Below are positions 900 through 62,322 of a stretch of DNA of 64,000 nucleotides, in pieces (position 1 is the stretch's first letter; every line of letters begins with the position of its first letter). The position numbers and the translations under genes were made by a program. This DNA comes from Alcanivorax sp. REN37. Lineage in GTDB: Bacteria > Pseudomonadota > Gammaproteobacteria > Pseudomonadales > Alcanivoracaceae. The notes beneath the pieces were generated by a model, which was not told where the DNA came from, made no database searches, and worked only from the letters and a program-made list of their open reading frames with translations. The stretch lies in contig NZ_JBGCUO010000001.1 of assembly GCF_041102775.1 (NCBI RefSeq), positions 1,240,001 to 1,304,000 of the forward strand, given 5' to 3'.

Positions 900-916
900 A
901 TCATCCTGCCCGGGGG

Positions 917-945: not shown

Positions 946-946
946 G

Positions 947-962: not shown

Positions 963-1014
963 TGGTCTTATGGACACTGGTCACACCCTGACATTGATGC
1001 TGAGGAACTCAGAA

Positions 1015-2058
1015 ATGGACGACAACAAAAGCAAGGCCCTGAAGGCTGCGCTGGCGCAGATCGAGCGGCAATTCGGCAAGGGCTCGGTCATGCGCATGGG
1101 CGATCACAAGCGTGAGCCCATTCCTGCCATTTCCACCGGCTCGCTCGGGCTGGATGTAGCCCTCGGTATCGGCGGTCTGCCCAAGGGGCGGATCGTGGAA
1201 ATCTACGGTCCGGAATCCTCCGGTAAAACCACGCTGACGCTGTCCGTTATCGCACAAGCGCAGAAGCACGGTGCCAACTGTGCTTTCGTTGATGCCGAGC
1301 ACGCTCTGGACCCCGACTACGCCGAGAAACTGGGCGTCAATGTTGATGACCTGATCGTGTCGCAGCCGGACACCGGCGAACAGGCGCTTGAAATCACCGA
1401 CATGCTGGTGCGCTCCGGTGCGGTGGACGTGGTCATTGTCGACTCGGTGGCGGCCTTGGTGCCGAAGGCTGAAATCGAAGGCGAGATGGGGGACCACCAC
1501 GTCGGCGTGCAGGCCCGTCTGATGAGCCAGGCGCTGCGTAAGATCACCGGCTCGGTGAAGAATGCCAACTGTCTGGTGATCTTCATCAACCAGATCCGCA
1601 TGAAGATCGGTGTGATGTTCGGCAACCCGGAAACCACCACCGGCGGTAACGCGCTCAAGTTCTACTCCTCGGTGCGGCTCGATATCCGCCGCATCGGCTC
1701 GGTAAAGCAGGGCGATGAGATCACCGGCAGCGAAACCCGCGTTAAAGTGGTGAAGAACAAGGTGGCGCCGCCGTTCCGTCAAGCGGAATTCCAGATCCTA
1801 TACGGCACCGGCATCAACAATCTCGGTGAGGTGCTGGACATGGGCGTGCAGCTTGGCCTGATCGACAAGGCCGGCGCTTGGTACTCCTACCAAGGCGACA
1901 AGATCGGGCAGGGTAAACAGAACGCCTGTGACTACCTGAGCCAAAACCCGGACATTGCCGGCACCCTCGAGAAGCAGATCCGCGCCCAGTTGCTGACTCC
2001 GGTGGCGCCGGCCGGTGCCGCAGGTGAGGTGGATCTTGAGGCCCAAGAAGAAGATTGA
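1015..2058 (+). CDS. recA: Recombinase RecA
   Basis: RecA is the ATP-dependent strand-exchange protein of homologous recombination and the co-protease that triggers LexA cleavage. The 347-residue product has the N-terminal helix ([18 protein letters not shown]), Walker [10 protein letters not shown] at residues 65-73, Walker [10 protein letters not shown], loop L1/L2 signatures ([40 protein letters not shown]) and an acidic C-terminus ([10 protein letters not shown]). Upstream in-frame codons from 970 lack conserved residues, so ATG 1015 is taken. A LexA box lies upstream, and recX overlaps the 3' end, so co-transcription is likely. Confidence 0.98.
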
Positions 2059-2524
2059 GCTGGAGCCGGCCGAGCGTCCGGCGGAGCTGAAGCGCAGCGC
2101 TCTGGCCATGCTGGCACGGCGGGATTATGCCCGCCGTGACCTACATGACCGCTTGGCGCAGCGCTACGGTGCCGGTGACGACCTCGACCAGCTGCTCGAT
2201 TGGCTCGAAGCCCAGCGCTTTATTGACGATGCCCGCTATGCGGGCATGTTTTTGCGCAGCCGGCTGGAGCGTGGCCATGGGCCGATGCGGGTGCGTCAGT
2301 CGATGCAGCAGGAAGGGCTGTCCGCAGAGCTGATTGAGACGGCGTTGGCTGAGGCTGACGTGGATTGGTTCGAGCAAGCGCGTCAATGCAGTCGCCGCCG
2401 CTTCAGCGGCCCGGCACCAGCCGATCCCCGCGAGCGCGCCAAACGGTTGCGCTTCCTGCAGTACCGCGGCTTCACAGCCGATCAGTGCTTCCACGCGCTG
2501 GATGCCGGCAGCGACGACGACTAA
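2036..2524 (+). CDS. recX: Regulatory protein RecX
   Basis: RecX binds RecA filaments and limits RecA activity. The product (about 162 residues) is made of repeated three-helix units typical of the family: [36 protein letters not shown], the [14 protein letters not shown] segment and a final [11 protein letters not shown] unit. The start is uncertain. TTG at 2036 follows a GAGGTGG ribosome-binding site inside the recA 3' end; GTG codons at 2015 and 2024 lack one. The overlap with recA suggests translational coupling. Confidence 0.85.
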
Positions 2525-2662
2525 TGGCCGCCGCTGCAGGGAACGCTGCAGCGCACACTCTGATTTTCCCCGTGGCGGCGGTGTGGCCCCGCATGGCGCC
2601 GCTATGGTGACCCCGCTATACTGCTGCCCTTCCGTCCTACCGCGACCCATGCAGCGAGACTT

Positions 2663-5257
<2,595 letters not shown>

Positions 5258-7911: not shown

Positions 7912-9393
7912 ATGACTCCCGTCATTCTGATCGTTGAAGACCCCCGCGACTGGGCGGCTTATCTGCCTGCCCGCCACCTGATGACCGCCCAGCAGTACCT
8001 CGACAGCAACACCCAGTTTGGCAGTGGCCGGGTACAGGTGATTAACCTGTGCCGCAGTTACCGCTATCTGAGCCCCGGCTATTACTGCTCGCTGTTGGCC
8101 GAAGGGCGCGGTCACCGGGTGATCCCGTCGGTGCGCACGGTCAACGATTTGTCGCGCAAAGCACTCTACGGACTGCACCTGGAGTCGCTGGAAGCGACGC
8201 TCGATAAGGCGATGAAGAAGCGCCGCCAAGACGGCGATCGGCTGACGGTGAAAGTGTTCTTTGGCCACACCGAGCAAGCGGGGTTGGAAGAGCTTGCGCG
8301 CCAGCTGTTCGACCAAATGCCGTGCCCGATCCTGCAGGTGGAGTTCCGCCGGCGCGACCATTGGGCGGTGGAGTCGGTGAAGGCCACCAGCTTGCACCAA
8401 CTGAAAGGCAAGGAAGAGGATGCGTTCGCCGCCGCGCTGGAACAGTTCAATGCCAAGGTGTGGCGCAAGTCCAGCACCCGGCGCAAGTACCGGTATGACC
8501 TGGCGATGCTGGTCAATCCGGACGAGAAATTGCCGCCCAGCGATAAAGTGGCGCTGCGCAAGTTCATCCGCGCCGGCGCCGAGCTGGGCATTAACGTGGA
8601 GCCGATCGGACGCGCCGATTATCCACGCTTGGCGGAATACGATGCGCTGTTCATCCGTGAGACTACAGCGCTCGGTGACCATACCTACCAGTTCGCCCGC
8701 AAGGCCGAGCAGGAGGGCATGGTGGTGATGGACGATCCCGGCAGCATTCTGCGCTGCACCAACAAGATCTACTTCGCCGAGCTGATGCAGGCGCACCAGG
8801 TGGCGGTGCCGAAAACCCGCTTCCTGTTCCGCGACAACCGCCATGATGCGGCGGCGCTGGTAGAAGAGCTGGGCTTGCCGGTGGTGCTGAAGATCCCCGA
8901 CGGCAGTTTCTCGCGCGGCATTAGCAAAGCCGACAGCGTCGAGGCGCTGGACAAGGCGCTGGTGGAGTACTTCAAGCAGAGCGCGGTGGTACTGGCACAG
9001 GAGTTTATGTACACCGACTTCGATTGGCGGGTTGGTATTCTCAACAACCGTCCGTTGTTCGCCTGCCAGTATTTCATGAGTAAAGGGCATTGGCAGATCT
9101 ATAACCATGCCGGTGGCAAAACCCAAGCCGGGCGCGCCCGCACGCTGGCAGTACAGGAAGTGCCGGCCAAGGTGCTGCGCACGGCGCTCAAGGCGGCGCG
9201 GCTGATGGGCAACGGGCTGTACGGGGTCGACCTCAAGCAAAGCGGCGACCGGGTGGTGGTGGTGGAGGTGAACGATAACCCCAACGTCGACAGTGGGGTG
9301 GAAGACAAGTGGCTGGGTGATGATCTCTATCGCCAGATCATGCTCGAATTCCTACGCCGCATGGAGGGGCGTCGGCTCGGCCTGCCGAGCTGA
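7912..9393 (+). CDS. RimK-like ATP-grasp family protein
   Basis: The 493-residue product has an N-terminal RimK-like region (MTPVILIVEDPRDWAAYLP, CRSYRYLSPGYYCSLLAEGRGHRVIPS) and a C-terminal ATP-grasp ligase domain from about residue 280. ATP-grasp motifs visible are NKIYFAELMQAHQVAVPKT, the nucleotide-binding VVLKIPDGSFSRGISK, DFDWRVGILN and the metal-binding EVNDNPNVDSG near the C-terminus. E. coli RimK adds glutamates to ribosomal protein S6; this longer family probably adds an amino acid to another protein or peptide, and the substrate is unknown. ATG 7912 is preferred over the upstream 7846 start because conservation begins at MTPVILIVED and AGGAGCGCC precedes it. Confidence 0.85.
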   Translation: MTPVILIVEDPRDWAAYLPARHLMTAQQYLDSNTQFGSGRVQVINLCRSYRYLSPGYYCSLLAEGRGHRVIPSVRTVNDLSRKALYGLHLESLEATLDKAMKKRRQDGDRLTVKVFFGHTEQAGLEELARQLFDQMPCPILQVEFRRRDHWAVESVKATSLHQLKGKEEDAFAAALEQFNAKVWRKSSTRRKYRYDLAMLVNPDEKLPPSDKVALRKFIRAGAELGINVEPIGRADYPRLAEYDALFIRETTALGDHTYQFARKAEQEGMVVMDDPGSILRCTNKIYFAELMQAHQVAVPKTRFLFRDNRHDAAALVEELGLPVVLKIPDGSFSRGISKADSVEALDKALVEYFKQSAVVLAQEFMYTDFDWRVGILNNRPLFACQYFMSKGHWQIYNHAGGKTQAGRARTLAVQEVPAKVLRTALKAARLMGNGLYGVDLKQSGDRVVVVEVNDNPNVDSGVEDKWLGDDLYRQIMLEFLRRMEGRRLGLPS

Positions 9394-9465
9394 TTGGGGC
9401 CGGTTTTACCGGGTTTTTCCCTGACCGTTCGCGGGCACAGGGCAAGTTCGCTAGACTTTGCGCCC

Positions 9466-10923
9466 ATGAAAGCCATGTTGACTTCGGTAGTGGCCCTGTT
9501 CGTCAGCCTCGCGCTGTTGCAGGGCGGCACTGCCATGCTCGGTACCCTCATCGCGCTGCGGCTGGGACTGGACGGCGCGTCCCAGCTGATGCTCGGCCTG
9601 ATGATGGCGTTCTATTCCGCCGGCTTCATCCTGGGCGCCATGCGCGGCGTGGTGGTGATCCGCAAGGTCGGTCATATCCGCGCCTTCGCGGTGTACGCGG
9701 CGCTGGCGTGCGCGGCCATCCTGGCTCACCCGATCGTGCTCGATCATGTGGCCTGGCTGGCAATGCGGTTCGTGTTCGGTTTCTGCGTTGCAGGCCTGCT
9801 GACGGTGACCGAAAGCTGGATCCACGATCGTGCCACCAACGAAACCCGCGGCAAGTTGCTCGGTGTTTACACCGTTAACTACTACGCGGCGTTCGGGGTC
9901 GGCCAGTTGCTGGTCGGACTTGGCAATCCCAGTGATTTCATCCTCTATTCCGGCGTAGCAATGCTGATTGTGCTGTCGCTGGTGCCGCTGGCGCTGACCC
10001 AGAGCCTGATTCCCAGTACCCCCACTGACGCCGAAGGCTTGAGTTGGCGGCGACTGGTGCGGCAGGCGCCGGCCGGCACCACCGGTGCCTTGGCCTCTGG
10101 TATCGCGCTCGGTTGTTTCCTGGGTCTGGCACCGGTGTATGCGCTGGATTACGGCCTCAGCGTGGCGCAGGTATCCGGCTACATGGGCTTCAGTGTGCTG
10201 TGCGCCATTTTTGTGCAGTGGCCTGCGGGCTGGCTGTCTGACCGGCTCGGGCGTTTGCCGGTGGTGGTCGGGCTGCAACTGATTGCGGCATTGGCGGCGC
10301 TCGGTACGGCATTGCTGGGTCCGGTGTCGATGGTGGCCCTGTTTGCTTTCTCTGGCGTGTTCTATGCGCTCTCCACCGCGATGTACCCGATGAGCGTTGC
10401 GTTGACCACCGACCAGGTAGACAGCAGTCAGATGGTGGCGGCGTGTGCCGCGATGCTGCGCACCTTCGGCATCGGCACCATGGTCGGGCCACTGGTGGCC
10501 GCGGCGGCGATGCAGGGGCTCGGCAATGCCAGCCTGTTTGTGTTCTTGGCCGCGGCACTGGTGTTTGCGGCCGGGCTGATTCAAATCCGTTTCCGTGCCA
10601 GCGATACCGTGCCGCTGGACGAGCAGGGCGCTTACGTGGCGGTGACACCGGTGTCGTCACCCTTGATGGCGGAAATCGATCCCCGCAACGAGGACTTTGA
10701 CGCCAACAGCGGCACCGAGCCGAGTGACTGGGATCTGGCTGACAAGCTCGAAATCCTGGTGATGGAAACCGAAGACTTGGTTGAGCAGCGCGTTGAAGAA
10801 GCGCTAGAGGAACGGGTTGAGGAAGCGCTGGAAGAGCGGGTTGAGGAGTTGCTGGAAGAGCGGGTGGAAGAATGGCTCGAAGAGCACGGCAACGATCCGA
10901 AGCCGCCGCCCGCCGGCAGCTAA
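9466..10923 (+). CDS. MFS transporter with repetitive acidic C-terminal tail
   Basis: The product is an inner-membrane major facilitator of 485 residues. The first 390 or so residues form about 12 hydrophobic segments. The usual loop 2-3 element (GAMRGVVVIRKVGHIRAF) and the second-half WPAGWLSDRLGRLPVVVG motif are present. The family resembles the YcaD-type putative transporters; the substrate is not predictable. The C-terminus is a cytoplasmic tail of about 90 residues, highly acidic, that ends in four tandem 8-residue repeats (RVEEALEE type). ATG 9466 starts the first membrane helix directly; upstream in-frame codons from 9394 are not membrane-like. Confidence 0.85.
   Translation: MKAMLTSVVALFVSLALLQGGTAMLGTLIALRLGLDGASQLMLGLMMAFYSAGFILGAMRGVVVIRKVGHIRAFAVYAALACAAILAHPIVLDHVAWLAMRFVFGFCVAGLLTVTESWIHDRATNETRGKLLGVYTVNYYAAFGVGQLLVGLGNPSDFILYSGVAMLIVLSLVPLALTQSLIPSTPTDAEGLSWRRLVRQAPAGTTGALASGIALGCFLGLAPVYALDYGLSVAQVSGYMGFSVLCAIFVQWPAGWLSDRLGRLPVVVGLQLIAALAALGTALLGPVSMVALFAFSGVFYALSTAMYPMSVALTTDQVDSSQMVAACAAMLRTFGIGTMVGPLVAAAAMQGLGNASLFVFLAAALVFAAGLIQIRFRASDTVPLDEQGAYVAVTPVSSPLMAEIDPRNEDFDANSGTEPSDWDLADKLEILVMETEDLVEQRVEEALEERVEEALEERVEELLEERVEEWLEEHGNDPKPPPAGS
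10789..10884 (+). repeat. Four tandem 24-bp coding repeats in the MFS tail
   Basis: Units at 10789-10812, 10813-10836, 10837-10860 and 10861-10884 each encode R-V-E-E-x-x-E-E with x-x = AL, AL, LL, WL. The period is 8 residues, not the 7 of a canonical coiled coil, and nearly every non-hydrophobic position is Glu or Arg. Confidence 0.9.
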
Positions 10924-51692: not shown

Positions 51693-52904
51693 ATGAGTGA
51701 CCCGTTGAAAACGTTCAGAAACTTTTATGGTAAGGCCGCCCCGCTGGCAATTGCTGTCCTAATGATCGCATTGGCAATAGTGCCTGACACTGTGTTAGCG
51801 GGCGGTGAGAAGAAAACGGTTTACTTTGCTGGACTTGCTCTGTCAGGTACCGCCGCTGAAAGCGCTGCCTCATTCCCTCATACCTTGGCTCTAATGCAGG
51901 AGCGGTCGGAGGAAGGCGGGGCTAATCTACAACAGGAGCTATGGGACGCTATTTCCAGTGCTCCGCTTGCACACCTCCACTTAGAGACAAACCTGGCCGA
52001 GCATTCAGACATTGAAGGCGCGGTGGCACTGGCAATGCTTGTTGACTGGGAAAATGTATCCCGAGAAAAGCTTGGTGATACTACAAAAATGGTCGCTGAT
52101 CTCCATGCGCAGGCCTTGCTATTCGACTACTCAAGCAAAAGGGTTCTGGCCGCGTACCCGGTGGATCGACAGTTGATTCATGTGGTGCAGGGGGACCCAG
52201 ATGCAGGCACCGAGGCGAGCCTCATTCGCGCCCTTTATTTCAATGAGTCGGACAACATCTTCCATCAATTTGCTAGGCGTTTGCAGGACCTAGAGGTGCG
52301 AGCCAGCTATGGGAACGCTATTCGCGTGATGTCTGTGGCGCTGGAGGACCAAGCGCTGGAGATGCTGAGGGCGCATGGCCAGGACCCGGACGTGTTTCAG
52401 GGCTGGGTAGCCGACCAGTTCGGAAAACGATTTTCTGATCGATTACAAGTGCCCTTCATTCCCTATGCGAAAGGTGTGGCTATTGGCGCCAGCATGGCCG
52501 CTCGTTTTGCCAACGGCGACGTGTATCAGCTTGAGCTGCCTGAGCCAGACTACCGAGTGCACTTTGTTGTGCGTGGCTTTAAGAAGGTGTTGCTCGACAG
52601 TAATTCTGCGGAGGCGGCTTGGGCATATGGCACATATCTGAATGTGCGTATCGCAAACTACGATGACAGCCGCGTTTATCTGGATGCCCCGTTCAAATTC
52701 GGAGCGGTGAAGAAAGTGCCCTCTTCGGCACAACAGTTGGACGACTGGACCGCGTTCCGTGAATCTATTTTTTCGCTTCTAGACCAAATTTGCGTCCAGG
52801 TCACCCAGCAGGATCGACGCTGGCTAAATAAATGGTCAGATGGCCGTGAGGTGCAGAAACAACTGCGGGAGCTAAACCGTCAGGTAATCGAGAGATCTCG
52901 ATGA
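51693..52904 (+). CDS. Exported protein of unknown function, gene 1 of envelope operon
   Basis: The 403-residue product begins with a signal peptide (LAIAVLMIALAIVPDTVLAGG, cleavage likely after VLA). The mature part has no recognised domain. It contains an alternating acidic/hydrophobic segment (ALAMLVDWENVSREKLGD, FDYSSKRVLAAYPVDRQLI) and a C-terminal RRWLNKWSDGREVQKQLREL. The FDYSSKRVLAAYP pattern suggests beta strands as in CsgG-like proteins, but this is only a hint. It starts the operon after a 345-bp leader and stops 10 bp before gene 2. Function unknown. Confidence 0.65.
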   Translation: MSDPLKTFRNFYGKAAPLAIAVLMIALAIVPDTVLAGGEKKTVYFAGLALSGTAAESAASFPHTLALMQERSEEGGANLQQELWDAISSAPLAHLHLETNLAEHSDIEGAVALAMLVDWENVSREKLGDTTKMVADLHAQALLFDYSSKRVLAAYPVDRQLIHVVQGDPDAGTEASLIRALYFNESDNIFHQFARRLQDLEVRASYGNAIRVMSVALEDQALEMLRAHGQDPDVFQGWVADQFGKRFSDRLQVPFIPYAKGVAIGASMAARFANGDVYQLELPEPDYRVHFVVRGFKKVLLDSNSAEAAWAYGTYLNVRIANYDDSRVYLDAPFKFGAVKKVPSSAQQLDDWTAFRESIFSLLDQICVQVTQQDRRWLNKWSDGREVQKQLRELNRQVIERSR

Positions 52905-52914
52905 TGAAGGTGGG

Positions 52915-54036
52915 ATGAAAATAGCAATGGCGAAGAGCGTGAGTATCTGGGAGCGGTTGATCATCGGTGTGGTGCTATCGCTACTAATGTCCACAGCGGC
53001 GGCCCTGGATTACAGAGGAAAAGCATCTGTGCCTTACCGTCAAGGTGTTTTCAGTTCCGGCCCTAAACCGGAGCTAAGGCAGGAGGCCATTGTCGCGGCG
53101 CGGTTGAGCGCCTGGAGTCATTACACTTCGACTTTCTCACCTTCTCGCATGGCGGCTTACCGCGGGATTGAGCAAGACATCGTCGGCAACCTCGATCAGT
53201 ACGTTACAGACACAACGGTGCTCGAGGATGCCGTAGATCGCGATGCGCGTCTTTACACCGTGTCAGTTCGAATTCGCGTTAACGAGGCCGCGCTGAACGC
53301 GCGATTGAACGCCGACGGGGCCGGCACCTCTGATATGGCGCTGATCCAAGGCGAGCTGTTTAGCTTTGTCTTTGTAGCTAGGGAAGCAGAGACGGTTAAG
53401 TCGTTCGAAGAAAGACGCACCCAAATTCGCAGCTCCGATACGGCTCTAGATGCCAGCCGTAGCGGCTACGCTGCTGGCGGACAGGCAAGGCTGCAGGAGC
53501 AATCTGCGGAGATCGAGAAGCACACGACCGGGGGCAGCTCTCAGCGTCGGGCAAATGAGACTAGTTTTCGTATTCGTTCAAGCGCTGACGTCGATGCCGC
53601 AATGACAGAGACCTTGAGTGGATATGGCTTTGATGTGGTGCTCTACGGTGACGTGCTGGCTTCTTGCGGCGGCAGTGACATGGCCACCATCAACAATGAG
53701 TTTCAGCTGTCGAATGAAATGTCTGTAAGTACCCGCAGAGATGCGATCCAGGCCGCGCGTGCTTGCGATGTTAATTATTTTGCTGTGGGAACGATGGACG
53801 TGGGCATGCATGACGTCGATCCAGTAACCGGGCATCAACGGGTTACCGTATCGGTACGGGGGCAGGTTTGGGATATCTCTGGGCGCCTGCCTCGCAACGT
53901 GGCGTCAGTGGGCCCAGTGCAGTACAGCGGGCTGGGTCCCGAGCCGGAAGTCGCCATGCGTAACGGGTTGAAATTAGCGTCCGAGCAAGCGGCTCGAACA
54001 TTGGTCGATCAACTTAACGCTAGAAAGTTGCGTTAA
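52915..54036 (+). CDS. Exported FlgT/LPP20-like protein, gene 2 of envelope operon
   Basis: The 373-residue product has a signal peptide (LIIGVVLSLLMSTAAA). The N-terminal mature region, from ELRQEAIVAARLSAWSHYTS to YTVSVRIRVNEAALN, has the alternating helix and beta-strand pattern of the FlgT N-terminal/LPP20 type, in which many Ala and an A-R-x-x-A-W segment lead into a strand-rich end. The C-terminal half (GFDVVLYGDVLASCGGSDMA, CDVNYFAVGTMDVG, EVAMRNGLKLASEQAARTLV) recalls the middle domain of such proteins. Similarity is by eye and unproved. GAAGGTGGG precedes ATG 52915. Confidence 0.6.
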   Translation: MKIAMAKSVSIWERLIIGVVLSLLMSTAAALDYRGKASVPYRQGVFSSGPKPELRQEAIVAARLSAWSHYTSTFSPSRMAAYRGIEQDIVGNLDQYVTDTTVLEDAVDRDARLYTVSVRIRVNEAALNARLNADGAGTSDMALIQGELFSFVFVAREAETVKSFEERRTQIRSSDTALDASRSGYAAGGQARLQEQSAEIEKHTTGGSSQRRANETSFRIRSSADVDAAMTETLSGYGFDVVLYGDVLASCGGSDMATINNEFQLSNEMSVSTRRDAIQAARACDVNYFAVGTMDVGMHDVDPVTGHQRVTVSVRGQVWDISGRLPRNVASVGPVQYSGLGPEPEVAMRNGLKLASEQAARTLVDQLNARKLR

Positions 54037-54076
54037 GGGAAGTACGTTTCTTTTTAAAAACTGGGAGAGCACGTCA

Positions 54077-54778
54077 ATGCAGAAAAATAAGGGAATGATG
54101 AAGCTGGGCTTGGCCCTGGTGATGGGAAGCATGATGTGGGCACCAGTGAGTTCCCAAGCGGCCTTCGGTGGTTTGACGCGGGGTGGTCAATCGGAATCGG
54201 GCACAGCGGTCGACGTCGATACCCTGGTCGACGAGCAAAAAGTGCTAATGGGTAAGTTGCATTCTGCCATGAGCGAGATCCTCCAGGCTCAGTCGCTGAC
54301 TCTTGAAGCGCAGGGATTCCGCGAGCAGGCTGCGGCCACTAAGGCAGTCGCCGGTAATTATGCAAGTGGGAACGTCTCAGGAGCGGACGCGGTCAAGCGC
54401 GATATTCAAATGACCCGTGAGAATCAGGAGCTGATCGAAAAAGGGGTGAGCGAGAGTGAAGCGCTTTCGTCCGAAGGACTGAAAACCCTAACCAGCGCAT
54501 TACCGCACTACGTGGAGGGAACCCGTCAAAGTGGTCAGTTAGGGGAGGCGTTCCAAGCTTGGACGGCATCATCACAAAGTGCTGTGTCCGGCTCACTGCG
54601 CTCCAATCCGATGAAGGCGCGCAAATTAAAAGGCGCTTTGAGCGAAGCCACAGCAGTGCTTTCCTCCTTGCCTGATCTGATTAGCGCTTGGTCAGGTACG
54701 ACCCGCTCCTTCATTGGTTATGGTCGTAGCAATAACGTGGATGTGAGCGACGTCGAAGCCCGCTTGGGAGATCTCTGA
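54077..54778 (+). CDS. Small exported protein of unknown function, gene 3 of envelope operon
   Basis: The 233-residue product has a signal peptide (KLGLALVMGSMMWAPVSSQA, cleavage after SQA). The rest is mostly helical, rich in Ala, Ser and charged residues (LHSAMSEILQAQSLTLEAQG, QELIEKGVSESEALSSEG), with few aromatics. No named family is recognised. Its stop is one base before gene 4. A periplasmic helical accessory or structural subunit is possible. Confidence 0.65.
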   Translation: MQKNKGMMKLGLALVMGSMMWAPVSSQAAFGGLTRGGQSESGTAVDVDTLVDEQKVLMGKLHSAMSEILQAQSLTLEAQGFREQAAATKAVAGNYASGNVSGADAVKRDIQMTRENQELIEKGVSESEALSSEGLKTLTSALPHYVEGTRQSGQLGEAFQAWTASSQSAVSGSLRSNPMKARKLKGALSEATAVLSSLPDLISAWSGTTRSFIGYGRSNNVDVSDVEARLGDL

Positions 54779-54779
54779 C

Positions 54780-56060
54780 ATGAGCGGGGGGCCGGGGAGG
54801 ATGGGCAGCAAGACGCCTTTTATAAGGCTTCTAGTATTAGTTTCACTGCTCGTTGCCGCTCCATTTTCTCTGGCCGCCGGCCTCCATGTAGTAACTGTTG
54901 AAGGAACGGGAGAAGGTCAGAACCTAGCTCAGGCAACCGCCTCAGCTTTGGTGTCGGCGCTGGCTCAAGTCAATGGGGTGCATGTTGAGGCGGTCCAGTT
55001 TATGGCCGAGGTGACGGTAGCACTTGAGACCAGCTCCAGCTCTGATTTCGCCTCTGCGACTGCTAATGCGGAAGCGATATCCCAAGCGACAGGGGGAGCG
55101 GTTAAGGCTTATCGGATTGTGTCCCAAGAGAATATGGGGGGCCATTGGCGAGTGCAGGTGGAGGCACAGGTAGCGGCCTATCAGCGATCGGTCCAGTCCG
55201 ATCGACTGCGGATTGTGGTGCTCCCCTTTAGGCCAGCCCAGAGAGGGGTAGATAAGTCCATCGAAGGGGCCCTCGCCAGCGAGCTAAATACTTATTTGAC
55301 TCAAAGTCGCCGCTTCGCAGTGTTAGATCGCACCTTTGAGAATGAGCGTCAAAGCGAGATGCAGATTGCATCGTCCGCCAGCGCCCCCATTGAAGAAATG
55401 GCCCGTCTAGGGCAACGACTCGGTACAGATCTGATGCTGGTGGGACATATCGACCAAGCTCAGGTGATGACCCAGCGCACAGAGTTAGCGGGGCGCACTT
55501 TAACTAACCAGACCAGCCGTGTTCGGCTGCAGTACCGCATTGTCGAGACGGCTACTGGACAGGTGAAGCTGGCTGAGAGCCTGACTCGCTCTCAAGAGGG
55601 GGCTGATCTGCAGAGGCTGGTCCAGCGTATTGCAGAAGATATGGCCCGCGACATTGTAGATGCCATTTTCCCGATCACTGTCGAAAGCATCTCCGGTGAA
55701 TCTTTGTTCCTCGGACAGGGCGGGAGATTGCTGAAAGCTGGGCAAGTCTACCGACTGATTCAGCGCGGAGAAGTGATCCACGATTCTTACACCGGAGAAA
55801 GCCTCGGGCATCAGGAGCTAAATGTAGGCCGGGTCCGTATTACCGATGTCCAGAGCAAACTGGCGCAAGCGCAGGTTCTGGAGCTGAGTGGGGATTTGCG
55901 CGATCTGTTTGGGCCTGGGCGACTGATCTTACGTGGACCATTGGCGGAGCCGCCCGCATCACCTACACGAGAAAGCAACAACCGTCCGCCACCCAGCGCT
56001 GCTACGCCTGCTTCTAGCGGTATTAGCACCATGCAGAAGACCCTCGAGTCGGATTGGTGA
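54780..56060 (+). CDS. Exported CsgG/LpoB-like protein with FlgT-like N-terminus, gene 4 of envelope operon
   Basis: The 426-residue product has a signal peptide (LLVLVSLLVAAPFSLAA). The first mature domain (HVVTVEGTGEGQNLAQATAS to HWRVQVEAQVAAYQ) resembles FlgT-N/LPP20 modules. The second domain is like the CsgG/LpoB/FlgT-M group: LRIVVLPFRPAQRGVDK, SELNTYLTQSRRFAVLDRTF, ARLGQRLGTDLMLVGHI, VRLQYRIVETATGQVKLAES. The C-terminus is a low-complexity Pro/Ser tail. CsgG members form outer-membrane pores or activate envelope enzymes. GGGAGATC precedes ATG 54780. Domain calls are by eye. Confidence 0.7.
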   Translation: MSGGPGRMGSKTPFIRLLVLVSLLVAAPFSLAAGLHVVTVEGTGEGQNLAQATASALVSALAQVNGVHVEAVQFMAEVTVALETSSSSDFASATANAEAISQATGGAVKAYRIVSQENMGGHWRVQVEAQVAAYQRSVQSDRLRIVVLPFRPAQRGVDKSIEGALASELNTYLTQSRRFAVLDRTFENERQSEMQIASSASAPIEEMARLGQRLGTDLMLVGHIDQAQVMTQRTELAGRTLTNQTSRVRLQYRIVETATGQVKLAESLTRSQEGADLQRLVQRIAEDMARDIVDAIFPITVESISGESLFLGQGGRLLKAGQVYRLIQRGEVIHDSYTGESLGHQELNVGRVRITDVQSKLAQAQVLELSGDLRDLFGPGRLILRGPLAEPPASPTRESNNRPPPSAATPASSGISTMQKTLESDW

Positions 56061-56099
56061 GCTTCTGAGACAGAGCAGATTGGGAATATTGCGAGAGTG

Positions 56100-57362
56100 A
56101 TGATGAGAGCAGCATACCTGAGAGTAGGAACTGGACTGGCCCTGGCTTGGTTGTGGAGCACGCCTCTGCATGCGCTATCTCTTGATGACTTCGTTCCGCC
56201 TGCGGCCGGTGGTGAGAGCCGTCCCAGTGGCGCGACGTCCGAGCACCAAGGAATGGTGGTGGCGGAGTCCATGCAAGATGCGCTGGGGTATGCCTATCAA
56301 CAGCTTATGGTTGAAGGAGAAGGTGTACAGGTGGTTCGTACAGCCACGGGACTGGGCGTGCTGTCCGGCGCTAGCGCTAGCTACAGGACCTACGACAACC
56401 TCAACGCCACCTTGATGAGTAAGCGTGCCGCTTATTCTCGTGCATTTATGGCTGCTCAAGGAGGACTGGTTCGACATTCGGAAGGCCTTTCCCAGCAGTG
56501 CGTACAAGCGATGGAAAGCGAGAGCTTGGTGATAGATACGGGTTCCGAGACGCTGGTTAATGACAGTCTCAGTGTGAGTGAGAAATGTAAGGACATTACT
56601 CAGGGCATGCTGTCCGGAGCCGTTGTCTACGCTGTGGATGATCGGCCCGAAGACAAGACCGTCCAAGTCATGCTGGCTAGTAGCACCCGTACTCGGCTAG
56701 CGGTCGATAGAGTGGGCGCTGCGGTAGTGGCGACTGCAGACCCGGATGCAGCGTTCGAGCATGTGGCTCGTGAGATCAGTCTGGGGGTGGTTCCCCCAAT
56801 GGGGGCGCGGCTGATCAGTAATCCTGAGACTGGGGAAAACATTGTCATAGGTTTCGGGAGTGCCATCATTCGTCAGCACACGGACGCTCCGATCCAGCGC
56901 CAGTTCCGCCAGCTGGCTCAACGCCAATCAGCGTCACGTGCTAACCAAGCTCTCGTGAGTTTTTTGACGGGCACGGAGCTGTACTGGAGCGGAAGCTTTG
57001 ATGAGAAGCAGCTTGAGGGCAGCCAGCAATTCACCCAACAGTTAGGCGAGCAGGGCCCCGCTGAGGATGTTGAACGTCTGCAAGACACTCGCCACGGGTT
57101 CTTGAACCAGTTACGGATGACCGCTGAGGGTCGTGCCGCCACCGAGGGCGTGGTGCCACCAGGTGTGCAAGTGAAGAGTTTTCCCAGCGAGGATGGCTAC
57201 TGGATGAACACGGTCGCGGTGTATATGCCGTCGTTGTCGCGTCAGGCCCGCAAGGCTGGGGATGCAACGGCACCTGCCAAGCAGCCGTCTGGAGGTCTGA
57301 ATGAAGCGGCAGATAATCCGCGGGGGCCGAGTGGCCGGGTTATCCTGGATAACGACTTCTAA
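56100..57362 (+). CDS. Exported protein of unknown function, gene 5 of envelope operon
   Basis: The 420-residue product has a signal peptide (VGTGLALAWLWSTPLHA). The mature part has an LPP20/FlgT-like feature (MSKRAAYSRAFMAAQGGLV), a strand-rich stretch ending in MLASSTRTRLAVDRVG and GARLISNPETGENIVIGFG, then FLTGTELYWSGSFDEKQLEG, and the last part a disordered Ser/Pro/Asp tail. I cannot name the family. ATG 56100 is chosen (GTG 56097 and ATG 56103 also possible). The 3' end overlaps gene 6 by 62 bp, so gene 6 is translationally coupled. Confidence 0.6.
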   Translation: MMRAAYLRVGTGLALAWLWSTPLHALSLDDFVPPAAGGESRPSGATSEHQGMVVAESMQDALGYAYQQLMVEGEGVQVVRTATGLGVLSGASASYRTYDNLNATLMSKRAAYSRAFMAAQGGLVRHSEGLSQQCVQAMESESLVIDTGSETLVNDSLSVSEKCKDITQGMLSGAVVYAVDDRPEDKTVQVMLASSTRTRLAVDRVGAAVVATADPDAAFEHVAREISLGVVPPMGARLISNPETGENIVIGFGSAIIRQHTDAPIQRQFRQLAQRQSASRANQALVSFLTGTELYWSGSFDEKQLEGSQQFTQQLGEQGPAEDVERLQDTRHGFLNQLRMTAEGRAATEGVVPPGVQVKSFPSEDGYWMNTVAVYMPSLSRQARKAGDATAPAKQPSGGLNEAADNPRGPSGRVILDNDF

Positions 57363-58167
57363 GTTCACTTCCTTGGCGGTCAGGGCTGCTTTGATACTCG
57401 GGTGCGGAATAGCTGTGGCCGCAGCTGGAGACAGGGTTAGTGGGCCGCGAAGTTGGCTACTCCAGTATGCTGACCGCCCCCTCCCGACATTGGCGTCGCC
57501 TAGTGATCGTGACGATGTGAAAGAATTTAATCGCAGAGCCTATTGGATGGGCGAGAGGCAAGGGTACCGTCGAGCATTAGTAGCATTTCAGGCGGAGGCC
57601 TCAGGGCGCGAGTGGGTGGGGCAGCGCGGTCGCCAGTACTGCCATTCGTTTCTCAGCCGACCGGAACGTGATGCGTGGTTCCAGAGCCTAGTAAGGCTTG
57701 CCGGAGGAAAACAGTCAGTGGCCGCCGTCTGGGCGGAGCGTCATCCCATTCAGGTGCGCATGGGGGGACTGCAAGAGCGTGTGGTCTCTGTCGATGAGGG
57801 CTGGGTAGCCGACTGCAACGTAGCGGTGGTGGCTATTCAAAGTAAAGCTCCAGAATTACCGCCGGCTCCGGAACTATGGCAGCAAGTTTACGATGCGGCC
57901 GTGCTGGCCCGGCGGCAGAGTCACTTGGCCCGTTCTCAGGAGTTGTTGGAAGCTCTCCACGCCACACCGGGGCTACCGGATAGGGCCAATACCACCGCAC
58001 AATTAATTGTCGTCTTGGCGGAGCAGGGAGACTTCGAGCAGGCTCGCTCCAAGGCGCAGAGCGAGCTAGACCTACTAGGAGTTACGGACGCCACGTTGCT
58101 TGAGGACATAGTGCGGTGGCTATCAAGCAGTGCATTGGTCGGAGTAGGCACTGCTGACTTTCAATAA
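57301..58167 (+). CDS. Exported protein of unknown function, gene 6 of envelope operon
   Basis: The 288-residue product has a long n-region and hydrophobic core (FTSLAVRAALILGCGIAVAAAG). The mature part has a Tyr/Arg-rich segment (FNRRAYWMGERQGYRRALVA), two Cys (QYCHSF, VADCNVA), and a C-terminal helical hairpin pattern (ARRQSHLARSQELLEALHAT, AEQGDFEQARSKAQSELDLL) that resembles a TPR-like repeat. A GGAGG site lies just before ATG 57301. It closes the operon, convergent with the PACE gene. Confidence 0.6.
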   Translation: MKRQIIRGGRVAGLSWITTSKFTSLAVRAALILGCGIAVAAAGDRVSGPRSWLLQYADRPLPTLASPSDRDDVKEFNRRAYWMGERQGYRRALVAFQAEASGREWVGQRGRQYCHSFLSRPERDAWFQSLVRLAGGKQSVAAVWAERHPIQVRMGGLQERVVSVDEGWVADCNVAVVAIQSKAPELPPAPELWQQVYDAAVLARRQSHLARSQELLEALHATPGLPDRANTTAQLIVVLAEQGDFEQARSKAQSELDLLGVTDATLLEDIVRWLSSSALVGVGTADFQ

Positions 58168-58959: not shown

Positions 58960-59178
58960 GCGTGGCCTTGGCGCCGGGGGGGGGGGACCGTAGCAGTCCC
59001 GGGCGTCTGTTTGGCAGAAAAATTGCTCCGGGGAGTACCGTTGGCGCCAGCGTCGACTCTTTTTTGCGCGTTTTGCGTTGGTGCTCTTGATGCAGCACCT
59101 GTTCTGCTGCTCAGCCAGATGGTGGAGTGGGCAGGCGGCCAGTGCTGCGTACAGCTGGAGCACTGCGGTGACTTGCAT
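58960..59178 (-). pseudogene. Decayed copy of the small lipoprotein gene at 60110-60427
   Basis: On the minus strand from ATG 59178 it reads MQVTAVLQLYAALAACPLHH, a lipobox-like LAAC, then EQQNRCC and SPEQFFCQTDARDCYG. The other copy reads TPEQFFCHPDAQGGYDSPSC and MQQNSERAE. DNA identity is also clear at 59001-59030 and 60202-60233 (GGGCGTCTG...TGGCAGAA...AATTGCTC). This copy lacks a stop in frame after the motif and continues past a run of 11 G into unrelated sequence, so it looks decayed. Confidence 0.5.
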
Positions 59179-59236
59179 GCAGCAGTGCCGACTGCCACAC
59201 TGGCCGCCCTGCAAAATACAACCCGTTGGTGGTTCC

Positions 59237-59419
59237 ATGAAACGGCATCTGTCTCGCGAAGAGGTCTCGTTCAAGGTCGATCAAGCCATTGGCTCTCTGG
59301 CCATTGAGAACGTGGTTGTGTCCAAGCGTACCCGCATCACTATGCTCGCTATCGCGTCCGGTCGGATGCCTGTTGATAAGGCAGTAGACCGAGTTATTCA
59401 GCGATACCTCCCAGCCTGA
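59237..59419 (+). CDS. VbhA-type antitoxin of Fic toxin
   Basis: The 60-residue product begins MKRHLSREEVSFKVDQAIGS and contains SLAIEN, which fits the class I Fic inhibitory motif (S/T)xxxE(G/N): the Glu would point into the Fic active site and block ATP binding. The rest (TRITMLAIASGRMPVDKAVD) is helical. ATG 59237 follows GGTGG. The fic gene begins 10 bp after its stop, as in vbhA-vbhT and related pairs. Confidence 0.8.
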   Translation: MKRHLSREEVSFKVDQAIGSLAIENVVVSKRTRITMLAIASGRMPVDKAVDRVIQRYLPA

Positions 59420-59429
59420 ACCGTCTTCG

Positions 59430-60047
59430 ATGACGGGCTATGAGCACTACGATCATGAGCAGGATGAAGATCCATACCTGATTCCTGGTTCTATGTGCCT
59501 GCGCAACAAGCTCTGTATCACTGATACCCAAACATTGATGGCGGTAGAAGCTGAAATTTCTTCGCTGCTGATGGCGGGGTTGGTTTCCGATCCTGTGGAG
59601 GCAAGCTTCGATTTGGCCCATTTGTGCAGAATCCATGAGGCCTTGTTTTCACCGGTCTATGATTGGGCTGGGACGGTTCGGCAAACCGAAATCAGTAAGG
59701 GTGGAAGGCTTTTTCTTCCCTACCGGCTGATCGAAGAAAAAGCAGAGCAAGTATTTCAGGAACTCCATAGGGAGAACCTGCTTCGGGGACTCAAGCTTGA
59801 GGCGTTCGCCGAGAGAGCTGCGTACTACCTTGGCCGAATCAATGAACTCCACCCTTTCAGGGAGGGTAACGGCAGGACTCAGCGGGTTCTGTTTGATCAG
59901 CTGGCGGAGCTGTCAGGTTTCGTTTTTTGCTGGACTGCTGTATCGGCTAGCGCCATGGCGGAGGCATGTCGGTCTGCCAGAGGTGCTGACACTGATTATC
60001 AAGGTTTGCAGAGGATGCTGGGCATTATTCTGTCCAGCGCCAAGTGA
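59430..60047 (+). CDS. fic: Fic-family toxin (protein adenylyltransferase)
   Basis: Fic toxins transfer AMP from ATP to proteins; small bacterial FicT members inactivate DNA gyrase and topoisomerase IV. The 205-residue product has the full Fic motif HPFREGNGRTQR at residues 141-152 (catalytic His141, anion-binding loop GNGR) and the preceding flap VYDWAGTVRQTEISKGGRLF. It starts 10 bp after the VbhA-type antitoxin and has no other domain, so it is a self-contained toxin of the VbhT/FicT group. Confidence 0.92.
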   Translation: MTGYEHYDHEQDEDPYLIPGSMCLRNKLCITDTQTLMAVEAEISSLLMAGLVSDPVEASFDLAHLCRIHEALFSPVYDWAGTVRQTEISKGGRLFLPYRLIEEKAEQVFQELHRENLLRGLKLEAFAERAAYYLGRINELHPFREGNGRTQRVLFDQLAELSGFVFCWTAVSASAMAEACRSARGADTDYQGLQRMLGIILSSAK

Positions 60048-60109
60048 CTCCCGCCTTTGCTGATTGCTGTTACGCGCGCAGCTAAGCCTCCATTGCGGCA
60101 GCCTCAGCG

Positions 60110-60427
60110 CTAGTCCCGTTTTTGTCGAGCGCTGCGCTCCTCAGCAAGAGCGCTGCCATGGCGGGTCGCCTTCGCGCAGGAAGGGCTGTCATAGCCACCT
60201 TGGGCGTCTGGGTGGCAGAAGAATTGCTCGGGGGTCATCGGCGCTGTGGGCGCCAGTGCCGGATCTGATTGTCGGGCTGGGTATGGGCGCTCTTGTTGCA
60301 GTGCCCGTTCCGCCCGCTCGCTGTTCTGCTGCATTAGCGCTGTGGGGGACGTGGGCTGGGGGGCGGCGCAGGCAGAAAGGATGGCCAGTATCAGGGCTGG
60401 GGGCAGGTGGCGAAGAGGCATCGGCAT
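60110..60427 (-). CDS. Small putative lipoprotein
   Basis: The 105-residue product has a type II signal with LILAILSACAAP (lipobox LSAC) and a short mature part with a QQNSERAERALQQERPY helical segment and TPEQFFCHPDAQGGYDSPSC. I do not recognise a family. The mature part has two Cys that could form a disulfide. A related, decayed copy lies 1 kb away at 58960-59178, so the toxin-antitoxin pair sits between the two copies. Confidence 0.6.
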   Translation of the reverse strand: MPMPLRHLPPALILAILSACAAPQPTSPTALMQQNSERAERALQQERPYPARQSDPALAPTAPMTPEQFFCHPDAQGGYDSPSCAKATRHGSALAEERSARQKRD

Positions 60428-60544
60428 GTCAGGGCTCCAGCATCAGATTGCTGGGGTTGGAACGCATTTTGAGGAAAACGATCCCTCGATAATGGCGCGT
60501 TGTCACAGTGGCATCGTGGTGCAGGCATAACGAGCTGTGATCGT

Positions 60545-60570
60545 ATAAAGATAAAAAATATAGTCTTTAT
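60545..60570 (+). promoter_or_regulatory. Candidate HipB operator
   Basis: Perfect inverted repeat ATAAAGA-N12-TCTTTAT upstream of hipBA in very AT-rich DNA. HipB-type regulators bind such palindromes. Confidence 0.45.
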
Positions 60571-60614
60571 GGCGGATTAGGCGCACTAGAGATCTGTTTT
60601 ACTATCATTATTTT

Positions 60615-60641
60615 TTGATTTAAGGATATCTTTTCTATACA
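60615..60641 (+). promoter_or_regulatory. Possible promoter of hipBA
   Basis: TTGATT (60615-60620) and TATACA (60636-60641) have a 15-bp spacer, short but workable. The start would lie just ahead of the hipB ATG codons. Confidence 0.35.
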
Positions 60642-60655
60642 TTGTGGGCATTGCA

Positions 60656-61027
60656 ATGAATAGGGATGCGTTTCCTATGCGTTATGACGATCTTAATACC
60701 CTGCCGATCAAGGACGTCATGGCTCGCTTCGGCGCTCAGCTGGAGCGTTATCGGTTGTCGCGCAACCTGCGCCAAGAAGACGTTGCCCGTGCCGCCGGCG
60801 TCAGCCGTATGACCGTCAGCAAGCTGGAAAGTGGCGGCGGCACCTTGGAGACGTTGGTGCGGGTGCTGCGTGCGCTCGACATCGAAGAGCGCTTGTTACA
60901 GCTGGTGCCGGATGCCACCTTGAGCCCGCTGGACCCTCGCTCTGGCCAGGCCGCTGGCCGGCAGCGTGCGCGTCCGGTGGCGGCGCCGACGGCGGATCAG
61001 CCCTGGACCTGGGGGGATGAGTCATGA
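60656..61027 (+). CDS. hipB: HipB-type antitoxin / XRE-family regulator
   Basis: The 123-residue product has a Cro/C1-type helix-turn-helix (RFGAQLERYRLSRNLRQEDV, AAGVSRMTVSKLESGGGTLE) and a C-terminal Ala/Pro-rich tail. It binds the operator DNA and neutralises HipA. ATG 60656 is chosen; ATG 60677 is also possible and would give a longer leader. The stop overlaps the hipA start (ATGA), as expected for a coupled toxin-antitoxin operon. Confidence 0.85.
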   Translation: MNRDAFPMRYDDLNTLPIKDVMARFGAQLERYRLSRNLRQEDVARAAGVSRMTVSKLESGGGTLETLVRVLRALDIEERLLQLVPDATLSPLDPRSGQAAGRQRARPVAAPTADQPWTWGDES

Positions 61028-62322
61028 CCCGCGCCGAGGTCTGGCTGTGGGGGCGCCGCATCGGCGCGGTGGTCTGGGATGACGCTCGCGGCTACGGTGT
61101 GTTCGAGTATGACCCCGCCTTCCTGACTTCCGGCATCCAGCTAGCGCCCTTCACGTTGCCATTACGCGCTGGGGTATTCGATTTTCCGGCCTTGCCGCGC
61201 GACACGTTCAAGGGACTGCCCGGCCTGCTGGCGGATAGCCTGCCGGACAAGTTCGGCAACCTATTGATTGACCGCTGGCTGGCGCAGCAAGGCCGCTCGC
61301 CCGGCAGCATGAATCCGGTGGAGCGACTCTGCTACACCGGCACTCGCGGCATGGGCGCGCTGGAGTTCCAGCCAGCCCGGTTGAGTCGCGAAGCCGGCGC
61401 CGGCACGCTGGACATCGAGCAGCTGGTGAACTTGGCAGCGGATGTGCTGGCCGAGCGCGAGCATCTGTCCGGCCATCTTGGCCCGGATCACGATGACCGA
61501 GCGTTGGGGGAAATCCTTAAGGTGGGTACCTCGGCGGGCGGCGCGCGCGCCAAAGCAGTACTGGCGTGGAACCCCGTCACCGGGGAGTTCCGCTCCGGTC
61601 AGGTGGATACCCGCGCCGGTTTCGAGCACTGGCTGTTGAAGTTCGATGGGGTGTCTGGCAATGCGGACAAGGAGCTAGCCGATCCGCTGGGCTTCGGGCG
61701 CTTGGAATACGCCTGCTATCTGGCGGCCCTGCAGGCCGGGGTGTCGATGGCGCCAAGCCGCTTGTACGAGGAAGGCGGGCGGGCGCACTTCATGACCCGC
61801 CGCTTCGACCGCACTGCGGACGGTGGCAAGCTGCATATGCTGTCGCTGGGGGCGTTGCGACACTTTGACTTCAACCAGCCACGGGCCTACGCCTACGAGC
61901 AGGCGCTGGAGACCATCCGGTTGTTGGGGCTGGGGCAGGCGGCCATCGATGAACAGGTGCGGCGAGCGTTTCTCAATATCGTGTTGCGCAACCAAGATGA
62001 CCACGTCAAAAACATCGCATTCCTAATGAACCGGCGTGGGCAGTGGTCGCTGTCGCCGGCATTTGATGTGGTTTACGCCTGGAACCCGGATGGCGCCTGG
62101 ACCAGTCAGCACCAGATGTCTGTGAATGGCAAAACCACCGGCTTCGTGTTGGATGACCTATTGGCTTTCGGCCGCTTTGCCGACCTGAAGCCGGCACGGA
62201 CCCGGCAGATATTGGCGCAGGTGTGCGAGGCGGTAGGCAACTGGCGGCAACACGCCGAGACTGCCGGTGTGCCCGACGCGCTGGCGCAAGGTGCGCAGGC
62301 GGGGTTCAGGCTGAACTGGTAG
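61024..62322 (+). CDS. hipA: HipA-type toxin kinase
   Basis: HipA phosphorylates glutamyl-tRNA synthetase and related targets, halting translation and producing persisters. The 432-residue product has the N-terminal couple-HipA region (VWLWGRRIGAVVWDDARGYG, PDKFGNLLIDRWL, the VERLCYTGTRGMGALEF segment), the glycine-rich loop VGTSAGGARAKAVLAW, and the kinase catalytic residues in NQDDHVKNIAFL (N-x-D-x-H-x-K-N) plus the Mg site DVVYAWNPD. All key residues are present, so activity is likely. Confidence 0.92.
   Translation: MTRAEVWLWGRRIGAVVWDDARGYGVFEYDPAFLTSGIQLAPFTLPLRAGVFDFPALPRDTFKGLPGLLADSLPDKFGNLLIDRWLAQQGRSPGSMNPVERLCYTGTRGMGALEFQPARLSREAGAGTLDIEQLVNLAADVLAEREHLSGHLGPDHDDRALGEILKVGTSAGGARAKAVLAWNPVTGEFRSGQVDTRAGFEHWLLKFDGVSGNADKELADPLGFGRLEYACYLAALQAGVSMAPSRLYEEGGRAHFMTRRFDRTADGGKLHMLSLGALRHFDFNQPRAYAYEQALETIRLLGLGQAAIDEQVRRAFLNIVLRNQDDHVKNIAFLMNRRGQWSLSPAFDVVYAWNPDGAWTSQHQMSVNGKTTGFVLDDLLAFGRFADLKPARTRQILAQVCEAVGNWRQHAETAGVPDALAQGAQAGFRLNW

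Follow-up and report, generated by a model that had tools for sequence, protein, structure and literature searches.

A conserved operon of predicted exported proteins with CsgG/FlgT-like folds and acidic-aromatic C-terminal tails in Alcanivorax sp. REN37

Introduction

What could be the common task of six closely packed genes of Alcanivorax sp. REN37, whose products all appear to be exported? The genes are located in a stretch of 64,000 nucleotides (hereafter the window; NCBI RefSeq assembly GCF_041102775.1, contig NZ_JBGCUO010000001.1, positions 1,240,001 to 1,304,000) within contig 1 of a genome of 3.02 Mb, which consists of eight contigs and is 99.7% complete. All six are encoded on the forward strand: g1 (51693-52904, 403 aa), g2 (52915-54036, 373 aa), g3 (54077-54778, 233 aa), g4 (54780-56060, 426 aa), g5 (56097-57362, 421 aa from a GTG start or 420 from the next ATG), and g6 (57301-58167, 288 aa). 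An initial reading of the letters (the original prediction) had proposed these co-directional open reading frames (ORFs) as an operon. Their sizes and spacing are real, with gaps of 10, 40, 1, and 36 bp from g1 to g5 and an overlap of 62 bp between g5 and g6; only the choice of the g5 start shifts the last gap from 36 to 39 bp. The signal peptide assigned to each protein is matched by a hydrophobic N-terminal stretch in six out of six, as judged by eye.

Standard annotation offers little orientation for this set. The products of g1, g2, g3, g5, and g6 gave no Pfam or NCBIfam match above cut-off, and none of the six, g4 included, reached an NCBIfam cut-off. Three of the four proteins of the core described below are therefore above no cut-off of either database in the window. 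A role in anti-phage defense or as part of a phage was rejected, as none of the six proteins matched a PADLOC model or a PHROGs family at E 0.01. Promoters and terminators at the operon showed no excess over shuffled sequences.

Conservation of the g1-g4 core

Genes g1-g4 are a conserved operon. Screening GTDB contigs with a g2 profile of four rows yielded 48 loci out of 83 candidates, and the profiles of g1, g3, g4, and g5 were then run on these loci. In 44 of them, the genes are arranged as g1-g2-g3-g4 on one strand, an order also present in the window; this number includes one locus with a second g3 (L064) and three with g5 ahead of g4 (L066, L067, and L069). Because the loci had been selected by g2, this gene itself was not counted as evidence, and many of the 48 loci are near-copies. 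The exceptions are two Burkholderia loci, in which g4 lies ~1.2 kb upstream and is followed by two other genes before g1-g2-g3, and two loci cut by contig ends (L070 and L107). According to the record titles, the hosts comprise 22 Stenotrophomonas and 9 Pandoraea, in addition to Xanthomonas, Lysobacter, Dyella, Cupriavidus, Burkholderia, [Pseudomonas] hibiscicola, a Zoogloeaceae bin, Rhodospirillales and other alphaproteobacterial bins, two Desulfobacteraceae bins, a Geobacter bin, and an Opitutales bin. The loci thereby extend over Pseudomonadota, Thermodesulfobacteriota, and one Verrucomicrobiota bin, the taxon assignments of operon-bearing metagenome-assembled genomes (MAGs) not being certain. 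Beyond the GTDB scan, the same order was found in Cupriavidus metallidurans CH34 (L038), a laboratory strain that carries the operon on its megaplasmid, and in genomes G045, G282, and G332 (L039, L057, and L058), and a Caballeronia locus (L037) is arranged like those of Burkholderia. Loci L055, L056, and L061 (G183, G388, and G478) are duplicates of the contigs of L085, L108, and L091, with identical g4, and add no evidence.

Since this gene order is kept across phyla, the operon is more than a chance association, and the fact that bacteria as distant as Stenotrophomonas, Pandoraea, and Desulfobacteraceae MAGs have retained it suggests an envelope function under selection. For these four genes, the proposal of a set conserved together in fixed order holds. 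It does not extend to g5, which is present in only 7 of the 48 loci, nor to g6, for which no homologue was shown. Outside the operon, no constant neighbor was recognized when the window, 22 of the 48 loci, and 11 further ones were compared (34 in total): among the 40 widest clusters, those beyond g1-g5 represented overlapping frames or families found under at most 5 of 33 labels. The second g3 of L064 forms a tandem pair (9086-10773) inside an otherwise intact g1-g5 operon, and Pandoraea anapnoica LMG 31117 harbors two differing copies of the g1-g4 operon on two contigs (L104 and L098).

C-terminal tails of g4 and g5

The last four codons of g4 (56046-56057, forward strand) encode E-S-D-W, and those of g5 (57348-57359, forward strand) D-N-D-F, the latter protein ending in LDNDF. 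Within the distinct records of complete operon-type g4, 52 out of 52 proteins end with an aromatic residue (49 W, 3 Y) and 51 have an acidic residue at position -4; this count leaves out L096 (contig end), L036 (LpoB-type operon, ending in P), and three double contigs. Clustering at 60% identity reduced the set to 16 sequences, 15 of them ending in W and one in Y. Their pairwise identity amounts to 88% at position -1 and 51% at -4, whereas ten positions sampled between -5 and -40 show 4-18%; of the 389 core columns, no more than 19 reach 0.87. The tail is located at the end of a linker of variable, unconserved sequence.

For g5, the aligned proteins (n = 13) show F (10), W (1), or L (2) at the C-terminus, and after clustering (n = 9) seven F and two L are retained; of these nine proteins, eight are acidic at -2 and seven at -4. 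Such a tail is missing from g1 and g2, and g3 mostly ends in L or F across clusters with the acids missing. In contrast to these, gene x, which in the Burkholderia and Caballeronia loci comes first among the two genes separating g4 from g1, ends in ADEF or ADDF in all three cases (Caballeronia and two Burkholderia loci). By profile, gene x is unrelated to g5 (HMM, i.e., hidden Markov model, E 0.049; hhalign 1.3%) and was rejected as a reduced homologue of it; the tail is all that the two share.

A search with g4 alone matched 36 of 57 close relatives. These matches were discarded as operon relatives, as 29 of the 30 loci read (L002-L031, without the window) carry a second, LpoB-like match beside the g4-like gene, which identifies the latter as a paralogue; the LpoB identity of the second match is Pfam-confirmed in L002 only. 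The g4-like proteins of these loci end in PGSS..P..W with at most two further residues in 29 of 30 cases, the frame of the thirtieth (L031) ending early, and the paralogue in the genome of REN37 itself ends in PGSSEAPLSW. The LpoB-like genes of L002-L031 end otherwise than in W.

Domains and predicted folds of g1-g4

In Pfam, g4 only just met the cut-off for CsgG (21.8 vs. 20.8 bits) and stayed below that for LpoB (20.4 vs. 22.3 bits); FlgT_N, FlgT_M, and LPP20 were unmatched. From the FlgT-N/LPP20-like and CsgG/LpoB-like regions proposed for this protein at the outset, the CsgG-like one is consequently retained. Comparison of the g4 family profile with PDB sequences assigned positions 297-394 to 6ve2 (E 2.2e-8), which we take to be TsaP and whose entry reads LysM domain-containing protein, and positions 167-272 to CsgG (4uv2, E 6.8e-5). 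Among eight g4-family proteins scanned, CsgG was above the cut-off in six (window, L002, L003, L038, L064, and L099, but not L036 and L039), FlgT_M in one (L003, 32.7 vs. 31.2 bits), and LysM in none. Judged from these sequence matches, g4 would be composed of a CsgG/FlgT-M-like middle, a TsaP-like C-terminal domain, a linker, and the tail ending in LESDW. A lipobox-like motif was detected in 40 of 54 g4, 17 of 54 g1, and 7 of 54 g3 rows, using a crude pattern on proteins with uncertain starts; the proteins of the window itself are by eye of the ordinary signal-peptide type. In L003, a single open frame (906-3518) joins DUF6844 and FlgT_M/CsgG parts, with runs of unknown residues inside that make the fusion uncertain. 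As the frame crosses such a run between the two parts, it was rejected as proof of a partnership.

The structural model of g1 (predicted local distance difference test, pLDDT, 76.6; predicted template modeling score, pTM, 0.73; 8-row alignment) was matched by Foldseek to the LPHT ring (8z5n, 8.4e-6), FlgT (3w1e, 1.3e-5), and CsgG (4uv2, 2.9e-5) as well as to many CsgG, LptE, and DUF330 chains. By our own reading of the order of helices and strands, the model suggests two tandem CsgG/FlgT_M-like domains at approximately residues 41-183 and 210-372, with a beta-alpha-alpha-beta(3)-alpha unit seemingly occurring twice. The g2 model (pLDDT 74.0, pTM 0.49, 7-row alignment) yielded weaker matches than g1, namely 6uxc (4.8e-4), Tip-alpha (2wcr, 5.0e-3), CsgG (4uv2, 0.010), and GNA1162 (4hrv, 0.015); by name, they cover CT253, Tip-alpha, CsgG, GNA1162, and LptE. 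Against PDB sequences, g2 had no match up to E 10. Splitting the model by eye, we tentatively assign an N-terminal LPP20/Tip-alpha-like and a C-terminal CsgG/GNA1162-like domain. The anticipated CsgG/FlgT-type folds were thus found for g1 and g4, and more weakly for g2. The g3 protein, whose homologues gather into a family alignment and were matched across the operon loci, appears to be an exported protein of an unnamed family and is, by eye, probably helical.

Relatives of g5 and g6

Both alignments and profile hits join g5 to the DUF6844 proteins, of which it would be a divergent relative that is often found beside g4. Its closest counterpart in a full-length alignment with DUF6844 proteins is encoded on a Pseudoalteromonas megaplasmid (L043; 39% in this alignment, 38.6% identity in direct comparison), followed by L060 (29%) and others (14-16%). 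PF20891 (DUF6844) was not reached by the window g5, nor by L043 and L060; g5 relatives of L066, L071, L072, L073, and L036 passed it, and L064 scored 25.5 bits against a cut-off of 27. Five DUF6844 proteins scanned from g1-g4 operons scored 25.5-91.6 bits. Neighboring g4-like and g5-like genes were observed in the window, L036, L043, L062, L063, L064, L066, L067, L069, L071, L072, L118, L119, and L124. In Pseudoalteromonas, the g5 relative lies behind a distant g4 (E 3.6e-12), and the same operon includes LPP20-type proteins together with a lytic transglycosylase of the SLT/MltC type; this region (L043, 4843-12802) encodes ~8 exported proteins and possibly represents a second version of the system. 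Near two operon relatives, flagellar-type ORFs were noticed by eye (FlgB-, FlgC-, and FlgD-like at 5947-7564 of L101; flagellin- and FliD-like at 21-4589 of L119). For g6, no homologue was detected, and five candidates beside g5 elsewhere were rejected, the best one (L060) reaching z 2.4 with 9 of 300 shuffles as high.

Acquisition and genomic context

The operon was probably acquired by this genome, since a search of the 45 remaining family members found no g2 and since the G+C content at third codon positions (GC3) of the operon is below that of most measured neighbors. Counting the genome itself, 3 of 94 relatives have g2, namely 1 of 46 from the family (this genome only) and 2 of 48 others from the order. 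With a profile, g2 was detected in 7 of the 398 genomes in a phylum sample, again counting the genome itself, G170 being matched only over an N-terminal part. A synteny survey within Alcanivorax and its relatives, as suggested in the original prediction, would accordingly have nothing to find. The six genes have a GC3 of 0.57-0.60, the three preceding genes 0.66-0.73, and a HipA-like gene after them 0.80; a nearby Fic-like gene, at 0.56, is as low as the operon. In the g4 tree, a Rhodospirillales operon copy (34% identity) is nearest to the window protein, which has no firm position inside a wider group supported by 93/95; four rows have long branches. The own g4 paralogue (C2:35793-36983), which adjoins an LpoB gene (184 bits) and a DUF1425 (YcfL-type) gene, groups with L003 and copies from the LpoB-type loci of the family, and its recent duplication as the source of the window g4 was rejected on the basis of the tree. 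In six congeners, pgi adjoins pgm in an arrangement other than here (in L157, pgm is visible only through the opposite frame), and no clean empty site was read.

Upstream of the operon (29892-51345, forward strand), a capsule or O-antigen-type cluster is followed by genes that we take from their sequence to be pgm, galU, and pgi. A Pfam scan of ten ORFs between 29892 and 45156 assigned Wzc/Wzz, UDP-N-acetylglucosamine (UDP-GlcNAc) 2-epimerase, UDP-sugar dehydrogenase, a MatE-type transporter, pyruvyl transferase, the Wzy/O-antigen ligase family, glycosyltransferases, and a heparinase-like protein. Just past the operon (59078-62322), the ORFs look by eye like toxin-antitoxin-type pairs, one formed by the low-GC3 Fic-like ORF (59430-60047) and a short reading frame, the other by a helix-turn-helix ORF and the HipA-like ORF (60644-62322).

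Discussion

From the observed gene order, its spread, the distant folds, and the tails, we infer an assembly, to which we give an even chance: g1-g4 would be the core of an as yet undescribed envelope module that has spread horizontally, an outer-membrane-associated periplasmic structure with docking tails. The exported proteins g1, g2, and g4, with their predicted alpha/beta folds of the CsgG/FlgT/LPP20 group, would most likely form a joint assembly on the periplasmic side of the outer membrane. This location is suggested because lipobox-like motifs occur in g4 and g1 and because the folds are those of envelope rings and lipoproteins; in other lineages, a lipobox on g4, g1, or g3 would anchor the respective protein at the outer membrane. 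In the proposed arrangement, g4 would be organized like FlgT, with an N-terminal part, a CsgG/FlgT-M-like middle, and a TsaP-like end, and would continue through the variable linker to a terminal [DE]xxW, and g5, the divergent DUF6844 protein, would contribute a terminal [DE]xxF. By our own reading, both tails look like docking peptides. They might bind, as the tails of single-stranded DNA-binding protein (SSB) do, to one receptor, either a core subunit or an envelope protein of the host, which would hold g4 and g5 at the same assembly. The latter would probably act as an accessory ring or scaffold linking outer membrane and cell wall without flagellum or curli, comparable to FlgT for the flagellar motor or LpoB for the wall synthase.

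Several observations weigh against this picture. With regard to the folds, the template modeling (TM) scores of g1, normalized by query length, are 0.16-0.28 among the 50 matches listed, as is expected where the matches span one domain, and the fold matches of g2 are weak. Pairwise hhalign comparison of g1, g2, g4, and g5 revealed no sequence kinship in six out of six pairs (probabilities <3%), by which common ancestry on sequence level was rejected. Consequently, the shared fold is supported by structure rather than by sequence; the helix-to-strand module that had been seen by eye in both g2 and g5 finds a weak CsgG/Tip-alpha-like counterpart in the g2 model and none in the g2/g5 profile comparison. 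In one locus (L040, G056), g1-g2-g3 are accompanied by a divergent LPP20 gene and g4 is missing. Concerning the tails, 24 further g5 relatives were evaluated (complete and non-duplicate, leaving out four contig-end rows, two duplicates, and four rows already covered): 20 of them, members of a single family, are tailless, with R, H, P, or G as the last residue, three end with an aromatic residue (L124, L153, and L154), and one in DKDL (L123). In this set, g4 was detected beside only one g5 relative; it was not found in the short loci of the 20 tailless ones, nor in L123, L153, and L154. Furthermore, the g4-like proteins lack the W in all five LpoB-type loci read that have DUF6844 (L036, L063, L118, L119, and L124), which hold the DUF6844 plus g4-like pair next to LpoB-like genes and have no g1-g3. 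Finally, tail conservation could be explained by a cause other than docking.

In these same five loci, W is the last residue encoded by the gene directly ahead of the pair (5/5; L036 4907-5539, L063 8381-9220, L118 8547-9170, L119 6396-7265, and L124 2932-3537). This gene is LpoB by annotation in L036 and carries an LpoB-like label, given without family search, in the other four. Tails seem to move between operon members. A wider and, in our estimation, speculative view, possible rather than probable, is that of a new kind of mobile machine of outer membrane and periplasm, transferred across phyla, in which a CsgG/FlgT-type body receives unrelated accessories through a shared acidic-aromatic tail, an envelope "tail code" by analogy to the SSB tail in DNA repair. 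In LpoB-type operons, the tail would then be carried by the FlgT-like protein in versions without DUF6844, whereas in versions with DUF6844 both the latter and the LpoB-like protein would bear it (five of five loci read).

A different reading of the kinship between g4/g5 and the pair of the LpoB-YcfL operons is a peptidoglycan-linked module that modulates wall synthesis or cutting, with g1 and g2 replacing LpoB. We regard it as conceivable yet doubtful. The own g4 paralogue beside LpoB and a YcfL-type DUF1425 protein, an Azospirillum DUF6844 plus g4-like pair coming after genes annotated YcfL and LpoB, and the Pseudoalteromonas g4-g5 pair adjoining a lytic transglycosylase and an LPP20 protein all speak for it. 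However, no wall enzyme was seen as a constant neighbor of g1-g4 among ORFs mostly not searched by family, and the CsgG/LpoB fold is common to proteins of many roles. In addition, this explanation overlaps with the docked envelope assembly favored here and differs from it solely by its commitment to the wall. Because LpoB and a lytic transglycosylase adjoin relatives of g4-g5, a cell-wall role is also our best specific guess for that assembly. The position of the window operon behind a Wzc/Wzz/Wzy-type cluster could instead indicate a CsgG-like channel for secretion or surface display of polysaccharide or protein. An acyltransferase ahead of g1 in two Pandoraea loci (Pfam on L102 only), downstream surface-type proteins with a TPS domain (L068, above cut-off) or Big_6 (L076, 25.5 bits, cut-off 27.6), and a downstream "cell wall anchor" by annotation in Caballeronia would fit such a channel. 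It is nevertheless unlikely, considering that no neighbor family is constant outside the operon, that g1-g4 loci of Stenotrophomonas, Xanthomonas, and Dyella have other neighbors by eye, and that nothing indicates a pore-forming segment. The original prediction of an undescribed periplasmic/outer-membrane assembly or secretion complex is partly backed, by co-conservation and folds on the side of the assembly, and lacks a constant neighbor pointing to secretion.

Instead of docking, the tails themselves could mark the proteins for a protease of the periplasm or for a PDZ protein involved in quality control. DegS/Prc-type proteins read C-terminal aromatic residues, and the tail stands at the end of a linker of variable sequence. 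Among the operon proteins, however, it is restricted to g4, g5, and the Burkholderia gene x, with g1-g3 ending otherwise (some g3 in F), and acidic residues at -4 and -2 belong to it, which renders this explanation quite improbable. Least of all would we expect an accessory ring of a flagellum or type IV pilus (H-ring-like or TsaP-like), which we judge highly improbable: it accounts for the FlgT/LPHT-ring fold of g1, FlgT_M in L003, the TsaP-like C-terminal domain of g4, three secretins in the genome, and ORFs beside the operon in L101 that are presumably FlgB, FlgC, and FlgD, but the 99.7% complete genome has no flagellin, and neither a secretin nor a pilus gene was recognized by eye in the ORFs of 21 loci, few of which were family-searched. 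Flagellin (PF00669) was found in 0/1 host genomes (control positive in 4/14) and curlin (PF07012) likewise in 0/1 (control positive in E. coli), making flagellar and curli roles unlikely here. The assumed lack of curli, flagellar, and LpoB partners is thus correct for flagellin and curlin, whereas an LpoB gene accompanies the g4 paralogue elsewhere in the genome.

To our knowledge, no phenotype has been described for this operon. In the literature searched on DUF6844 and on FlgT combined with CsgG, LPP20, or TsaP, no such envelope function was found. The proposed docked module would bring the DUF6844, CsgG/FlgT-like, and LPP20-like families together in a single assembly; its tails are a short and directly testable handle.

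Comparison with known systems

FlgT has an N-terminal part, a CsgG/FlgT-M-like middle, and a C-terminal beta domain. The g1 model resembles it (3w1e; LPHT ring 8z5n), the domain order of g4 is alike, and the proteins are exported; on the other hand, the host has no flagellin, the operon is a different one, the window g4 is unmatched by FlgT models and carries an extra linker and acidic-aromatic tail, and g1 seemingly contains two such domains. CsgG is approached by the middle domain of g4, just above the Pfam cut-off, and by the matches of the g1 and g2 models to its chains. The differences are a host genome without curlin, an identity of 8-12% in the fold alignments, further domains in g4, and no pore evidence. 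TsaP, a partner of the type IV pilus secretin, shares its C-terminal domain (6ve2, 3jc8) with g4 by profile (E 2.2e-8), whereas LysM had no match in the g4 family (n = 8) and no pilus gene was recognized beside the operon.

The LpoB/YcfL/DUF6844/FlgT-like operon of Azospirillum has paralogues of g4 and g5 side by side, and the own C2 locus belongs to the LpoB/YcfL/FlgT-like type without DUF6844. These operons differ from g1-g4 by having LpoB and YcfL but no g1-g3, by g4-like proteins on other tree branches, and by the tails, with PGSSEAPLSW on the own paralogue and no W on the copies beside DUF6844. The SSB tail, which ends in IPF, is unrelated, cytoplasmic, and part of DNA metabolism, so that it can be considered as an analogy only; nevertheless, it has the same outline of a linker, acidic residues, and an aromatic residue at the C-terminus.

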